24,032 nucleotides of DNA from a virus: positions 1-24,032 of IMG/VR virus record IMGVR_UViG_3300049460_000386. One strand, written 5' to 3'. Under the pieces are notes generated by a model. The model ran no database searches and was not told the origin of the DNA. It worked only from the letters and a program-made list of their open reading frames with translations. The translations under genes and the position numbers were made by a program. Within the stretch, counting starts at the first letter, position 1. The number at the start of each line of letters is the position of its first letter. Positions 927 through 24,032 of the stretch are shown piece after piece.

Positions 927-1033
927 TCTCATCGTGCAAAATAATGGTCTTAGTCGACTGCCTCCGTTTCAAACGCAGTGAGTGACTTCGGCAGACGGCG
1001 GAGGCCCGGGGACCCTGGCAACTTCCAAGGTAC

Positions 1034-1054
1034 ACGGGGCATAAGACTCGCGGG
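1034..1054 (+). other. cosN: Predicted lambda-like cosN packaging cut site
   Basis: The sequence reads ACGGGGC, six bases, then CTCGCGGG. Lambda cosN as I recall it has the same two blocks with the same six-base spacing; only the six bases inside the cohesive end differ (15 of 21 positions identical). By analogy the nicks would fall after 1036 on the + strand and after 1048 on the - strand, leaving a 12-nt 5' overhang GGGCATAAGACT at 1037-1048. Upstream, GGGACC (1009-1014) and AGGT (1028-1031) sit about where lambda has GGGTCC of cosQ and AGGT just before cosN. The position between the lysis genes and the terminase genes is where lambda carries cos, and the large terminase here is of the lambda GpA family. 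The match was made by eye. Confidence 0.75.
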
Positions 1055-1083: not shown

Positions 1084-1360
1084 GTTAACTGGTTAACTCG
1101 GGGGGGTTAACTTGGCTGAAGCCCTTACAGTCCGTGGCCTGTAGCCCGGTTAACTAAGGCGTTAACCAGGTTAACTCGGTTAACTGCTAATTGGCCTCAA
1201 CGCCAGACGGGCTGGGGCTTTGAGCATGGTTAACTCCTGAGTTAACCAACTGTTTTACTTGGTTAACTCCCAACGTCACCCTGAATTGACCTATAGGTCG
1301 CGCAGGCCGTGGCGTTCAGCGGTTCATCGATGAGTTAACCGACTAAATCACTCGGTTAAC
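1084..1360. repeat. Array of 12 GTTAAC palindromes (cosB-like or operator array)
   Basis: GTTAAC occurs at 1084, 1092, 1106, 1149, 1161, 1170, 1179, 1229, 1241, 1262, 1334 and 1355. Most copies extend to GGTTAACT or GGTTAACTC in one orientation or the other. A 6-bp site is expected about once in 4 kb at random. I noticed only two other copies in the window (2751 and 6342). Some copies form inverted pairs. The array begins about 36 bp to the right of the predicted lower-strand cos nick. This is where lambda places cosB, the multi-copy binding site of its small terminase subunit. No gene is convincing in this interval. Binding by the small terminase (2157-2756) or by the KilA-N protein (1648-2142) is inference. 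Confidence 0.8.
1239..1269. repeat. 11-bp perfect inverted repeat with 9-nt loop
   Basis: GAGTTAACCAA (1239-1249) and TTGGTTAACTC (1259-1269) are perfect inverted repeats separated by 9 nt. Their GTTAAC cores are 21 bp apart, two turns of B-DNA. The left arm also pairs with GGTTAACTC at 1228-1236 across a 2-nt spacer, so the two structures compete. Confidence 0.75.
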
Positions 1361-1369: not shown

Positions 1370-1474
1370 AAAAACTCTCGCATTTCAGGGCAAAACTCGC
1401 GCCTTTTCAGGCAAAACTCGGGGCTTTTTGAGCAAAACTCGAGCACTTCAGCGCAAAACTCAACACCCCGCGCT
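1370..1474. repeat. Five direct repeats of exactly 21 bp (CAAAACTC units)
   Basis: AAAACTC occurs at 1371, 1392, 1413, 1434 and 1455, a constant 21-bp step. The inner units read CAAAACTCG followed by a variable C/G/T-rich half often ending TTTCAGG; the last unit diverges after CAAAACTC. The period equals two helical turns, so the conserved blocks would lie on one DNA face. The units touch with no spacers, so this is not a CRISPR. The same 21 bp equals seven codons, so on the - strand the array reads as heptads containing EFC, inside an ORF that I do not call as a gene. The array lies 5 bp after the last GTTAAC inverted repeat and ends 33 bp before the terminator at 1507. Confidence 0.8.
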
Positions 1475-1647: not shown

Positions 1648-2142
1648 ATGAACAACGTCATCCCCTTTCATTACCAAGGTCAAGCCGTTCGCTTTAATAG
1701 CGAGGGCTGGATCAATGCCACTGAAATCGCCAAGCGAGAAGGTAGGCGCCTCGATAAGTGGCTTTCGACTCAAGAAACCCAGGAATACATACGTGCCCTG
1801 GGTCATCATTTAAATACCCCCGAAAAGGGGGATTTAATCTCGTCGATGCGCGGACGCTCTGGTGGCACCTGGTTACACCCGAAACTGGCTGTGGCATTTG
1901 CAAGATGGCTCTCGGCGGACTTTGCCGTCTGGTGTGACCTGCACATCGATGCCTTGTTGCGCGGCGAGCTGGACGAGAAACAGCAGTTTGACCGGGCCTG
2001 TAAGAGCCTGGATGACGCCAAAGCAAACGCCAGCCTTAACGGCAAGGCGCTTGCCAAGTACCGCTGGAAGAAGCCGGAACTTGTACAGCAAGTCGAGTAC
2101 TGGCGTGGCCAGCTGCAACTGACCTTGGGTCTGTGCGATTAA
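1648..2142 (+). CDS. KilA-N domain DNA-binding protein
   Basis: The 164-residue product carries a KilA-N domain over about residues 3-110, starting VIPFHYQGQAVRF with WINATEIAKR. It has the diagnostic block GGTWLHPKLAVAFARWLSAD (about residues 72-91) and then FAVWCDLHIDALLRGE. The remaining C-terminal segment (ASLNGKALAKYRWKKPEL, then a leucine-rich end) resembles the helical tail of other phage KilA-N proteins. KilA-N is a DNA-binding fold found in phage antirepressors and regulators. A second ATG at 1644 is out of frame; 1648 is preceded by GGAAGGAG at 1632-1639 with good spacing. The gene sits between the repeat array and the small terminase gene, 14 bp upstream of the latter. This suggests a role in packaging or in controlling the packaging genes, but the target is unknown. 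Confidence 0.87.
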   Translation: MNNVIPFHYQGQAVRFNSEGWINATEIAKREGRRLDKWLSTQETQEYIRALGHHLNTPEKGDLISSMRGRSGGTWLHPKLAVAFARWLSADFAVWCDLHIDALLRGELDEKQQFDRACKSLDDAKANASLNGKALAKYRWKKPELVQQVEYWRGQLQLTLGLCD

Positions 2143-2156
2143 CTAAAGGTTAGGCC

Positions 2157-2756
2157 ATGACCACAGTCACTAAGGCGGAGTACGCCCAGCGCCAAGGTTG
2201 GTCCAAGGCCTACGTGTCCAAGCTGGCCAAGAGCGGCCGCCTGGTGCTGGCCGCGGACGGCACGGTGGAGGTCGAGGCGACGGATCGCCGCCTGCTCAGC
2301 ACAGCGGACCCGAGCAAGGCCAACGTGGCGGCACGGCATCAGCGTGAACGCAGAGAGCACAGTCCGCAGCGGCCGGTCGCACCAGTCCCGATCGATCACC
2401 CACCAACGACCGACTTCTCACGGCAGACGCCGCTGCCGGGCGAAGGCATTCCGGACTTTCAGGAATCGCGGGCTTTTCGCGAGTACTTCGAGTCTCGTTT
2501 GACCGAAAGCGAGTTTTACAAAAATCGCGGGGCCTATGTGGAGTTGGCGGCAGTGAAAAGGGCCGCGCATTCCACGGGACGCATGCTGAGAGATTTGCTG
2601 CTCGGCATGCCGCCGCAGTTGGCACCCGAGCTGGCCGCAATGAGCGATCACTGGGAAATCGAACGGCACCTGACGGCGGCGCTGCGCCGCGTCCTGGAAG
2701 ATGCCGAGCGCATGTCCTCGGCCGACCTTGTTCATGCATTGACACCAGCGAGTTAA
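2157..2756 (+). CDS. terS: Terminase small subunit (Nu1-like)
   Basis: DNA-recognition subunit of the packaging motor; it would bind near cos and position the large subunit. The 199-residue product begins with a helix-turn-helix/winged segment (about residues 4-45: KAEYAQRQGWSKAYVSKLAK, then GRLVLAADGTVEVEATDRRL), as in Nu1-like proteins that read cosB in lambda. A Pro/Arg-rich linker (about 60-95) follows, then a helical C-terminal half (FREYFESRLTESEFYKNRGA and RRVLEDAERM) likely used for oligomerisation and contact with the large subunit. AAAGG at about 2145-2149 precedes the ATG. It ends 3 bp before the large subunit gene, the expected TerS-TerL pair. Its stop codon lies within a GTTAAC (2751-2756). 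Assignment rests on position and N-terminal architecture more than on strong sequence motifs. Confidence 0.8.
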   Translation: MTTVTKAEYAQRQGWSKAYVSKLAKSGRLVLAADGTVEVEATDRRLLSTADPSKANVAARHQRERREHSPQRPVAPVPIDHPPTTDFSRQTPLPGEGIPDFQESRAFREYFESRLTESEFYKNRGAYVELAAVKRAAHSTGRMLRDLLLGMPPQLAPELAAMSDHWEIERHLTAALRRVLEDAERMSSADLVHALTPAS

Positions 2757-2759
2757 CCA

Positions 2760-4769
2760 ATGTCAACGGAAATGCCTGACGGTGAACAGGAGTACCGTCA
2801 GGATTTTTTCCGTGGGTTGAAGCCCGAGCCCGACGTCTGGATCGATGTCTGGGCTGACGAGTACATGCGTATTCCACGCGATGCCGGCGCTGCCGAACCC
2901 GGCCAGTACCGCACGGCGCGGACTCCGTATGCCCGTGAACCGATGCGCTGCCTGTCCCCGGCGCATCCCTGCAAGCGCGTGGTGACCATGGTCGCCTCGC
3001 AGTTGATGAAGACCCAGATTGCCCTGAACTGGATCGGCGGTCTGGTACACATGGCACCGTCGAACATCTTGACCTTACTGCCCAGCCTGGGCCTGGCCAA
3101 GCGGGTCTCGTCGCGCATCGGCAAGACCATCAAGGCCACCCCAGTGCTGCGCGAACGGGTGGCGGCCAACCGCTCGCGCGATGCCCGCAACACCATGGAC
3201 ACCAAAGAGTTCGAGGGCGGCTCGTTGTACATCACCACTGCCGGCTCGGCGGCGAACCTGTCGGAGTTGTCGGCGCGCTACATCTACGGCGATGAAGTGG
3301 ATCGCTGGGTGGTGGACGTGGGCGAGGAGGGTGACCCGATTGAGCTGGCAGAAACCCGCGGCAGTACGTTTGGCCGTAACGCCAAATTCTACTTTTCCAG
3401 TTCGCCGACGATTCGTGGTGCGTCGCGCATTGCCGATTTGTTCGAGACCAGCGATCAGCGTTTTTATTATGTGCCGTGTCCGAATTGCGGGCACATGCAA
3501 GTCCTGGAGTGGGAGCGCCTGCTTTACTCGGCGGATTACCAGCGGGTGCACTACCAGTGTGCCGGGCCTGACTGTGACGTGCTGATTGAGGAACACCATA
3601 AGGGCGAGATGTTGGCCAAGGGCGAGTGGCGTGCCCATGCCCAGGGCGATGGTGAAACCGTGGGGTTCAACCTCAATGCCTTGTACTCGCCAGCGGGCTG
3701 GACCGGTTGGGCCGCATTGGCCAAGCAGTTCGAGAAGGCCAAGCTGGCCATGTCGCGCGGTGATCTGGAACCCATGCAAGTGTTTTATAACACCCGCCTG
3801 GCCAAGGTCTGGGACAGCGCACAGGAGCAAACCAAAGCCGATGTGTTGATGGCGCGGGCGCGCCTGGAACCCTATGGCTTGGGGTTGATGCCGTGCGGTG
3901 CATTGCTGCTGACGGCGGCGGTCGATGTTCAAGGCAACCGTCTGGAGTTGTTGGTGGTCGGCTGGGGGCCGGGCATGGAGCGCTGGATCATCGATTACCA
4001 GGTGATCTGGGGGGACCCGTCCGATGAACACACCTGGGCGGTGCTGGATGACAAACTCAAGGCGCGTTATCCGCATCCGAGCGGTGCGCAGCTGACGATC
4101 CGGGCTGTGGGCATCGACTCCGGCGGGCATCACACTGATGAGGTTTACCAGTTCTGCCGGCTGCGACGCTGGCGCAACATTTTTGCGGTGAAGGGGGCGA
4201 GCAAACCCGGCCGACCGGTGATCGCACAGCGGCCATCGATGGTGGATGTAACCTGGAAAGGCACCACTGAACGCAAAGGGGTGGGGCTCTGGATGATTGG
4301 CACCGACACTGCCAAGGACTGGATCTATAACCGCTATCCGGTGGAAGACGGTCCCGGTGCTTTGCACTTTGCCAACGACCTGCCAAACGATTTTTTTGAA
4401 CAGTGCGTCGCCGAGCGCAAGGTCACCCGCTACGTCAAAGGCTTCAAGAGAGTCGAATGGGTCAAGGGCAAGGCAGAGCGTAACGAGGCCCTGGACTTGA
4501 TGGTGTACAGCCTGGCCATGGCGCATTATCTGGGACTGAACCGCTACAAGGAACATGACTGGGCACAGGTGAGAAGCGCTCTGTGGCAGGTGACGCCATC
4601 AGGCCAGAAACCTGTCACGGCCGAGCGTCTACGTGCTGCGGCGAAACCAGAGGAACAGCCGGCCGAGGCAGCGCCGCAACACAGTGTCCCCACGACGGCC
4701 CCCGTGCGTATTGCAGCACCGGCACAACGGCGAAGTTCCAGCAGCGGCTACCTCAAAAAGCGACGCTGA
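2760..4769 (+). CDS. terL: Terminase large subunit, lambda GpA family
   Basis: ATPase and endonuclease that cuts concatemers at cos and pumps DNA into the procapsid. The 669-residue length matches the GpA family (PF05876; lambda gpA is 641). The variant Walker A region is VASQLMKTQIALN at about residues 78-90. The Walker B strand with acidic pair is YIYGDEVDRW at about 174-183. A Cys-rich zinc-binding insert follows (CPNCGH, then CAGPDC, about 240-275). The nuclease half begins AAVDVQGNRLELLVVGWG (about 385-402), carrying the expected metal-binding Asp, and continues with IDSGGHHTDEVYQFCR (about 452-467). The C-terminus is Pro/Ala-rich and basic (YLKKRR), as expected for the portal-docking tail. 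The start follows the small subunit by 3 bp. GpA-type terminases generally make cohesive ends, in line with the cos site at 1034-1054. Confidence 0.96.
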   Translation: MSTEMPDGEQEYRQDFFRGLKPEPDVWIDVWADEYMRIPRDAGAAEPGQYRTARTPYAREPMRCLSPAHPCKRVVTMVASQLMKTQIALNWIGGLVHMAPSNILTLLPSLGLAKRVSSRIGKTIKATPVLRERVAANRSRDARNTMDTKEFEGGSLYITTAGSAANLSELSARYIYGDEVDRWVVDVGEEGDPIELAETRGSTFGRNAKFYFSSSPTIRGASRIADLFETSDQRFYYVPCPNCGHMQVLEWERLLYSADYQRVHYQCAGPDCDVLIEEHHKGEMLAKGEWRAHAQGDGETVGFNLNALYSPAGWTGWAALAKQFEKAKLAMSRGDLEPMQVFYNTRLAKVWDSAQEQTKADVLMARARLEPYGLGLMPCGALLLTAAVDVQGNRLELLVVGWGPGMERWIIDYQVIWGDPSDEHTWAVLDDKLKARYPHPSGAQLTIRAVGIDSGGHHTDEVYQFCRLRRWRNIFAVKGASKPGRPVIAQRPSMVDVTWKGTTERKGVGLWMIGTDTAKDWIYNRYPVEDGPGALHFANDLPNDFFEQCVAERKVTRYVKGFKRVEWVKGKAERNEALDLMVYSLAMAHYLGLNRYKEHDWAQVRSALWQVTPSGQKPVTAERLRAAAKPEEQPAEAAPQHSVPTTAPVRIAAPAQRRSSSSGYLKKRR

Positions 4770-22659: not shown

Positions 22660-22995
22660 TTAAACGGTATCCGAAATTTTGATGCCCATAATCTCCATTG
22701 TGAGATGAGGTGCACCGACAACCGAGCCTTTGAGCTCAATTGTTCCAGCTTCATAATTCACCGTTCCGGCAGCATTCAATGTGTAGCTGTCTATTCTTAC
22801 TACGTTGGTATTTCCGTCTAGCCATTTACTAACTTTAAATTGAGACTTGAACGTACCTGATTGAGCAGGAACATCGCCCTGATAAAGGTAGTGGGGGTCA
22901 CCACCATTGGCCTTTCCATCCTTCACAACTACAAGACCACTACCGAAAGCACCCGTGTTGGCCTTGAAATTCACAGAAAAAATCCCGTTAGACAT
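22660..22995 (-). CDS. GrlR-like regulatory protein (cargo gene)
   Basis: The 111-residue product resembles the GrlR family, known from the negative regulator of the type III secretion locus of enteropathogenic E. coli. The fit is a compact beta-barrel pattern: MSNGIFSVNFKANTGAFGSG, then LVVVKDGKANGGDPHYLYQG (about residues 21-40), then TFKSQFKVSKWLDG and the C-terminal strand GAPHLTMEIMGIKI. The family places a small amphipathic beta-barrel at this size. The start at 22995 has a strong SD (AAGGAG, 9 bp upstream); the longer ORF from 23118 lacks support. The gene is on the - strand, visibly lower in GC than the neighbours, with its own possible promoter. This looks like a moron (cargo gene) inserted at the end of the tail operon. 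Its regulatory target here is unknown. Confidence 0.78.
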   Translation of the reverse strand: MSNGIFSVNFKANTGAFGSGLVVVKDGKANGGDPHYLYQGDVPAQSGTFKSQFKVSKWLDGNTNVVRIDSYTLNAAGTVNYEAGTIELKGSVVGAPHLTMEIMGIKISDTV

Positions 22996-23025
22996 CGTGC
23001 AGACTCCTTCGCAATGACAAGGGTG

Positions 23026-23053
23026 AGCATAGGGTTCAACGTCATTTACGCAA
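23026..23053 (-). promoter_or_regulatory. Possible sigma-70 promoter for the GrlR-like gene
   Basis: On the - strand, TTGCGT (23048-23053) and TATGCT (23026-23031) are separated by 16 bp and lie about 30 bp before the start codon, just upstream of the SD. The match to the consensus is moderate (4 of 6 in each box), so this is a candidate only. Confidence 0.4.
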
Positions 23054-23095
23054 GGAGGTTGCATCCAAACAGTATTACTAATCACGTAAAGGAGC

Positions 23096-23129
23096 GGCCA
23101 GTCTGGATGCGTCAACATCCAGCCTGGCC
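23096..23129. other. Interrupted hairpin upstream of the methyltransferase
   Basis: GGCCAG (23096-23101) and CTGGATG (23103-23109) pair with CATCCAG (23116-23122) and CTGGCC (23124-23129), leaving a single T/C mismatch and a 6-nt loop. The stem is 13 bp long in total. No T-run follows, so it is not a clear terminator; it could be a regulatory RNA structure or a protein-binding dyad. Confidence 0.6.
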
Positions 23130-23163: not shown

Positions 23164-23200
23164 AAGGCTCCTGCTCTGTGCACAAAGCAGAGCGAGCCTT
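23164..23200. other. Second hairpin, immediately before the SOS box
   Basis: AAGGCTC (23164-23170) pairs with GAGCCTT (23194-23200), and inside it GCTCTG (23173-23178) pairs with CAGAGC (23188-23193), with a 2-nt bulge on one side and a 9-nt loop. It ends 4 bp before the LexA box. With no T-run close by, terminator function is doubtful; it may insulate the methyltransferase promoter. Confidence 0.5.
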
Positions 23201-23204
23201 GCAC

Positions 23205-23220
23205 CTGTTTATTTATACAG
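23205..23220 (+). promoter_or_regulatory. LexA (SOS) box upstream of the adenine methyltransferase
   Basis: CTGTTTATTTATACAG fits the gamma-proteobacterial LexA operator CTG-N10-CAG and differs from CTGTATATATATACAG at two positions. It lies 17 bp before the start codon, with an AAAGG ribosome site (23222-23226) in between, so LexA bound here would block initiation. It suggests induction on DNA damage, as for other prophage genes. Confidence 0.7.
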
Positions 23221-23237
23221 TAAAGGTCTTGCTATCT

Positions 23238-24032
23238 ATGTCTTCACCTATCATCCCTTGGATGGGCGGCAAACGCCGCCTGGCCGATCGTCTTATCCCG
23301 CTGTTTCCACCCCACGAATGCTACGTCGAAGTGTTTGCCGGCGGTGCCGCGTTGTACTTCATGCGACCCCAAGCCGCTCCCGTTGAAGTCCTCAACGACA
23401 TCAACGGCGACCTGGTCACGCTGTACCGCGTCGTGCAGAACCACCTCGAAGAGTTCGTGCGCCAGTTCAAATGGGCGCTCAGTTCACGTCAGGTGTTCGA
23501 GTGGCAGAAGACGACCCGCCCGGAAACCCTCACCGACATCCAGCGCGCTGCTCGGTTTTTTTACCTGCAGCACCATGCCTTCGCCGGCAAGGTGTCCGGG
23601 CAGACCTTCGGCACCGCGACCACCACACCGTCAATCAACCTGCTGCGAATCGAGGAAAACCTCTCGGCGGCCTGGCAACGCCTGTCCGGTACCTACGTGG
23701 AGAACCTGCCCTGGCTGGAATGTGCCGAACGCTACGACCGTGCCCATACCTTTCACTACATGGACCCGCCGTACTGGCAGACCGCAGGCTATGGGGTGGA
23801 TTTTCCGTTTGAGAACTACGAACGCATGGCCGACTTCATGCGCCGCTGCAAAGGCAAGGTAATGGTCAGCATCAACGATCACCGGGACATCCGCCGGGTG
23901 TTTGAAGGCTTTCACTTTGAGATGTTGGACATCCGCTACACCACGACCAATCAACGCCAGGGCAAGGCCGACGTCAGCGGTGAACTGGTGATCATGAACT
24001 GGGAGCCAGCGGCGTTGGGAGGACTATTTTGA
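23238..24032 (+). CDS. Dam-type DNA N6-adenine methyltransferase
   Basis: Transfers a methyl group from S-adenosylmethionine to adenine in DNA (D12 class N6-adenine methyltransferase, PF02086); 264 residues, the normal size. The N-terminus has PWMGGKRRLADRLIPLFP, and motif I VEVFAGGAALY (about 31-40) for cofactor binding. The catalytic motif IV is DPPY at residues 176-179 (HYMDPPYWQTAGYG). The middle region carries FFYLQHHAFAGKVSG. The start at 23238 is preceded by AAAGG and lies 17 bp after the SOS box; an in-frame ATG 60 bp upstream lies before the LexA box and would fuse unrelated residues. The stop is at the last base of the window. The recognition sequence cannot be told from the protein alone. 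It could protect phage DNA from restriction or control phage gene expression. Confidence 0.92.
   Translation: MSSPIIPWMGGKRRLADRLIPLFPPHECYVEVFAGGAALYFMRPQAAPVEVLNDINGDLVTLYRVVQNHLEEFVRQFKWALSSRQVFEWQKTTRPETLTDIQRAARFFYLQHHAFAGKVSGQTFGTATTTPSINLLRIEENLSAAWQRLSGTYVENLPWLECAERYDRAHTFHYMDPPYWQTAGYGVDFPFENYERMADFMRRCKGKVMVSINDHRDIRRVFEGFHFEMLDIRYTTTNQRQGKADVSGELVIMNWEPAALGGLF

Follow-up and report, generated by a model that had tools for sequence, protein, structure and literature searches.

A GTTAAC array beside a predicted lambda-type cos site in Pseudomonas prophages is very probably an expanded cosB

The DNA considered here (the window, by which we mean the whole stretch analyzed, of 24,032 bases) comes from a phage family of Pseudomonas prophages. 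It includes a holin gene, a DUF1737 gene, a cos region, and genes for a KilA-N protein, the small terminase TerS, the large terminase TerL, the portal and the tail sheath. TerS (2157..2756, plus strand; PHROG 57, 1.3e-28) is followed by a TerL of gpA type (2760..4769, plus strand; Pfam GpA_ATPase 3.3e-83, GpA_nuclease 1.4e-108). Between the repeat array that is our subject and TerS sits the KilA-N domain protein gene (1648..2142, plus strand; Pfam PF04383, 1.9e-22), an insert present in this phage only. A GrlR-like protein gene lies on the minus strand at 22660-23118 (Pfam PF16518, 8.7e-7), and a gene for a D12-class DNA adenine methyltransferase (23178-24032, plus strand) reaches the end of the record.

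The word GTTAAC occurs 14 times in the window, 12 of them within 1084..1360 (plus strand) and the other two at 2752 and 6342. Dinucleotide shuffles of the whole window have a mean of 2.04 copies and a maximum of 6; when positions 1080-1365 alone are shuffled in the same way (2000 shuffles), the mean is 0.22 and the maximum 3. The earlier note on this DNA had described 12 copies in 277 bp, far above chance and mostly belonging to one 8-mer or its reverse complement, and both statements hold: we count exactly 12, and 10 of them are AGTTAACC/GGTTAACT. Numbered from the predicted left end, whose first base is bp 1, the sites start at bp 48, 56, 70, 113, 125, 134, 143, 193, 205, 226, 298, and 319. 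Nearly all 230 GTTAAC sites in the window and 17 relatives (18 loci) have a purine before the core and a pyrimidine after it, so the site is RGTTAACY. While the core itself is palindromic, the flanking bases suggest that the array mixes site orientations. Helical phasing of the sites is only modest (10.5-bp vector length 0.51 in the window and 0.45 on average, over relatives that are not independent).

One of the two isolated copies, found by word count at 2752..2757 (plus strand) in GAGTTAACCA at the TerS stop codon, agrees with the array's 10-mer. An extra GAGTTAACC at this junction of TerS stop and TerL start is found in the window and in one relative (L012, 5587-5592) and is absent from the others; it is reminiscent of the accessory rR2 inside the TerS gene of N15.

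To the left of the array, we predict a lambda-like site for a 12-base 5′ cohesive end. The window's CACG-GGGCATAAGACT-CGCGGG aligns with no gaps to TTACG-GGGCGGCGACCT-CGCGGG of lambda's joined ends, which puts the predicted cosN, with flanks ACG and CGCGGG, at 1037..1048 (plus strand). The first GTTAAC lies 36 bp beyond its predicted end (1048/1049), the distance to the cos nick that the earlier note had estimated. About 30 bp left of the nick, the place of lambda GGGTCCT is taken by GGGGACCCT (1008..1016, plus strand; cosQ-like GGGACCC), a candidate cosQ that is the same in almost every locus of three TerS clades. A consensus search found no convincing IHF site in the array; it gave one match with one mismatch near 1346, and the lambda control region likewise had only a one-mismatch match.

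The place where the array begins is kept across the whole group. Site 1 starts at bp 48 in the window, in its close relatives, in the sister clades and in the chromosomal islands described below, and the first forward site does so alike whether the clade uses GTTAAC, GTGAAC or TTGAAA. For comparison, R3 occupies bp 50-65 in lambda and bp 48-60 in N15 (PMC9026076; also PMC4669245). In a TerS group represented by L078, L083, L096 and L050, GTTAAC sites (partly mixed with GTGAAC) stand beside a different cosN-like core, CAAGGGTAATTCG, so that array and cosN types can combine differently.

Related prophages, where the earlier note had proposed looking for enrichment of GTTAAC between cos and the terminase genes, do have it: all 17 closest relatives (TerS 74-77% identical) carry 11-17 copies between cosN and TerS. 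These loci are not all independent, as L004 and L014 look like one phage. The relatives' arrays usually end about 20 bp before TerS, and the GTTAAC that most of them have there corresponds in place to GATTAAC at 2137..2143 (plus strand) in the window, which by its sequence would be a degenerate last array site upstream of TerS, displaced by the insertion.

The sites are grouped in four clusters, which in the relatives lie at about bp 48-69, 112-133, 192-225, and 285-351. The clusters keep their positions across the 17 relatives, and the sites remain exact although the spacers between clusters have diverged. Each of clusters 2-4 is preceded by a 29-bp palindrome-like element, CTGWAAGCC-N11-GGCTTWCAG, ending 2-3 bp before the next GGTTAAC. 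In the window, the element before cluster 2 is CTGAAGCCCTTACAGTCCGTGGCCTGTAG (1116..1144, plus strand), with CTGAAAGCC-N11-GGCTTACAG at the same place in relatives; the one before cluster 3 is CTCAACGCC-N11-GGCTTTGAG (1196..1224, plus strand), whose arms pair at 8 of 9 positions. We considered whether the spacers form base-paired RNA or DNA hairpins: the arms pair slightly better than swapped arms (7.15 versus 6.75 of 9 positions), too small a difference to support a conclusion.

The same element turns up elsewhere (L132-L149). A perfect version, GGCCACGTANTACGTGGC, was found in 18 viral contigs, and in 13 of these it lies 59-60 bp left of the cosQ-like box. What separates clusters in the window's clade (CTGNAGGCC..GGCCTNCAG) is found at that distance left of cosQ in phages of the TTGAAA clade. 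In L143 (near 4510, reverse complement) its surroundings are an unrelated AGTCTAA array, with a tRNA-like region nearby. Other repeats also accompany these loci. Loci of the TTGAAA and GTGAAC clades (L023-L047) have GTAGGACA, GTGGGACA, and CTGTCCTA as recurrent words, at 3-6 copies upstream of cos and no more than 1.7 kb ahead of TerS. The window has five AAAACTC repeats at an exact spacing of 21 bp (1371..1461, plus strand, at 1371, 1392, 1413, 1434, and 1455), located after the GTTAAC array and before TerS; they have AACTCG in common with many GTTAACTCG sites, in whose right half it lies. The same array of five in 21-bp steps occurs in L012 (4864-4954).

The proposed binder of the array is TerS. 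A phmmer search of TerS against PDB sequences gave no match. An AlphaFold model of TerS (from 20 sequences) has a mean pLDDT of 72, with 78-85 for the N-terminal 50 residues, which are modeled as a winged helix-turn-helix (HTH). Of the chains that match residues 2-52, the best are the viral packaging entries 7lw0, 7lwr, and 7lxs, whose title is viral DNA packaging motors (Z 7.5-7.8, rmsd 1.3-1.5 over 48-50 residues), and 6hn7, from work on PICI Rpp-TerS, is close behind. The winged HTH predicted at the TerS N-terminus resembles the DNA-binding domains of lambda-type TerS; Z scores below 8 are individually weak, and they are consistent with the PHROG assignment.

Where TerS identity falls to 45-57%, the cos core and gene order are kept and the word is changed. 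We observe that the word is paired with the TerS recognition helix, which in the window lies within QGWSKAYVSKL, in 89 of 89 distinct TerS with upstream DNA (the one odd row in the tally, L044, has no upstream DNA and is outside the 89). Where [YW]VSKL is preceded by P or A, the word is GTTAAC; KSYVSKL goes with GTGAAC, and PSYITWL with TTGAAA. How many independent events does this co-variation represent? On a free TerS tree built without the HTH there are three word changes. Monophyly of TTGAAA, which the data do not reject (p-AU 0.51), lowers the number to two. Since the words need only about two changes, the co-variation of word and helix rests on few independent events. A first tree had hinted that the HTH and cosB move between TerS bodies as one cassette, an idea left unsupported by that same p-AU for TTGAAA monophyly.

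These word changes also bear on the palindrome, which the earlier note had read as that of an operator. It is probably incidental, because the homologous GTGAAC and TTGAAA sites are not palindromic; the simpler reading is one HTH per site with a single reading direction.

The cos region also occurs at chromosomal loci where no terminase was found nearby. Pattern searches found a second copy of the array in the genome of L003 (G001) and one in G138, the latter being all that was added by searching about 640 Pseudomonas-related genomes; a third, G495, was added from the genomes of L004-L009. G001 carries both the prophage and an island. All three loci have cosQ, cosN and array, with site 1 at bp 48 and 15 (G001), 17 (G138) and 11 (G495) sites. 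The first (G001:C7:395823-396250; L154/L158-L159) has HEPN-like genes and a tRNA-Arg nearby, the second (G138:C20:8277-8639; L155/L156/L160) has Dsr1 (PADLOC, 2344 bits) and a DUF6119 protein, and the third (G495:C1 near 1486417; L179) has a SIR2-like ORF and a CoiA-like ORF, both assigned by eye, and a tRNA-Gly. Searching the surrounding 20-40 kb by tblastn gave no match to the TerS, TerL, holin, KilA-N or DUF1737 proteins. No tyrosine integrase (PF00589) was found within about 35 kb, the nearest being 37-41 kb away or more. The islands' cosN variant, with a predicted end at GGTGCGAAGACT, is absent from viral contigs.

Around the array, these loci have in common essentially the cos-array block and a block of about 130 bp with GTTCCC repeats. 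The latter is also found in the satellite-like phiAH14b, next to its helicase gene; no primase was seen near the standalone arrays. A cos-array block conserved among otherwise different genes is independent evidence of a cis-acting packaging signal. Finding it with no terminase nearby, beside antiviral-type genes, suggests islands packaged by a helper phage; the loci are possibly helper-packaged defense islands, or else satellite remnants, and the islands may be mobile.

Taken together, the ungapped cosN alignment, the start at bp 48, the conservation of the array in every close relative, the word that follows the TerS helix, and the cos-only loci lead us to conclude, with a probability of about 0.9, that the array is an expanded form of cosB, the portion of a lambda-type cos packaging site to which TerS binds. 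The earlier note had put the array at the place of lambda's cosB on position, and the sequence comparison bears this out. Binding by TerS, the nick positions, and the roles of the extra copies and spacers are what we infer from it. The first site would be an R3-like anchor setting the distance to cosN. The further clusters, with palindrome-like spacers of about 30 bp between them, may take on additional TerS and cause the DNA to fold or wrap, which would raise affinity and specificity. TerL, anchored by TerS, would then nick the 12-base staggered cosN, and packaging would start rightward. A caveat to the expanded cosB is that the sister clades manage with 4-6 sites, and it leaves the purpose of 11-17 unexplained.

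That caveat is the starting point of a different explanation, in which only the first few sites act in packaging and the long array is a neutral tandem amplification of cosB modules, by slippage or unequal crossing-over. The variation of array length from 11 to 17 fits such a process, as does an island that has a duplicated block about 293 bp apart. But sites that remain exact between diverged spacers, in clusters whose positions are conserved, argue for selection on the distal sites too, and we regard neutral amplification as unlikely.

Could the array instead be a transcriptional operator, for autoregulation by TerS or for another regulator of late phage genes? In favor of this, the terminase genes follow the array and TerS contains an HTH. 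However, an operator does not account for three clades with different words all having their first site at bp 48 of a lambda-type cosN, nor for the array and cosN being kept together in islands where no terminase genes were found for it to regulate, and we consider it very improbable.

Even less probable is an operator for the KilA-N protein encoded downstream, which the earlier note had considered as a binder of the array. KilA-N domains bind DNA, and in the window the gene adjoins the array. Yet all 17 close relatives keep the array and none has a KilA-N gene in the sequence available around it, and there is no GTTAAC in the KilA-N neighborhoods of phages D3 and PS-1. The earlier note held that related phages with the same terminase and KilA-N genes and no array would speak against its proposal; we see the reverse, the same terminase with KilA-N missing and the array always present. 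In the window the gene separates the final array site from the one before it, the arrangement expected of an insertion. The homolog in D3 (orf11) sits among head genes, so the KilA-N gene seems to move between phage loci. The AAAACTC repeats were also considered as a KilA-N operator and discarded, since D3 and PS-1 have none upstream of their KilA-N genes and L012, which lacks KilA-N, does have them. Least probable of all is that GTTAAC (the HpaI sequence) is a target of methylation or restriction avoidance tied to the D12 methyltransferase at 23178-24032, given that other clades have GTGAAC or TTGAAA in this position and that GTTAAC is not enriched elsewhere in the window.

Returning to the expanded cosB, we can compare it with cos systems already described. 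Like cosB of lambda, 21, phi80 and Gifsy-1 (R3-I1-R2-R1), it lies to the right of cosN, starts at about bp 48, and would consist of repeated TerS sites; the winged-HTH TerS, gpA-type TerL, 12-base cosN and cosQ-like box are also those of lambda-type phages. It differs in having 11-17 short sites over about 290-590 bp, as opposed to three 16-bp R sites in 120 bp, in showing no clear match to an IHF site, in having palindrome-like spacers between clusters, and in its Pseudomonas host. With 11-17 sites in place of the lambda layout (three R sites, R2 opposite to R3 and R1), we class the array as a cosB variant and not as the lambda architecture. N15 has a simple cosB with a single essential R3 at bp 48-60; the array has the same start and is the opposite extreme. 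Closer by are the short arrays of the sister clades (GTGAAC four to six times, TTGAAA four to six times, and GTTAAC four times, as in the P. aeruginosa phages LPPA56, Lodos, and Haddon), which have the same cos-array-TerS order and the same TerS family. They have fewer sites, in about 100 bp, no spacers, and in two clades another word.

Is any of this new? The earlier note took a repeated array of this form at a packaging site to be undescribed. TerS-bound repeats occur in some Gram-positive cos regions, for instance that of Lactobacillus phage A2, so the mere presence of repeats at cos is not new; what stands is that no paper on GTTAAC or on a many-site cosB was found in the open literature, subscription papers being outside the search.

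The standalone loci resemble P4 and PICI (Rpp) satellites in that cos lies beside antiviral genes (Dsr1, SIR2-like, HEPN-like) with no terminase found. P4 and P2 are known to have hotspots adjacent to cos that hold defense genes (PMC9122126). Unlike those satellites, the standalone loci have no phage integrase within about 35 kb. They also keep a helper-type cosB in full, whereas enteric PICIs have no recognizable cosB (PMC9026076). A wider proposal, which we advance tentatively and at somewhat less than even odds, joins two things: that the expanded cosB is a long scaffold for loading TerS, made of modules of a spacer and 2-4 sites, and that integrase-less Pseudomonas defense islands have captured the whole cosN-cosB, so that group-A phages would package and spread them in trans.

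Why several TerS sites exist is an open question, discussed in terms of specificity versus an "energy ladder" (PMC9026076). Recognition of cosB by TerS has been detailed mainly in lambda, 21, and N15, phages that have three sites or just one. The loci described here form a natural gradation of 4 to 17 sites, in which three sister words are paired with three recognition helices, and this opens both the recognition code and the use of site number to direct tests. The cos-bearing defense islands, for their part, suggest a route by which antiviral genes could hitch-hike from one Pseudomonas strain to another.
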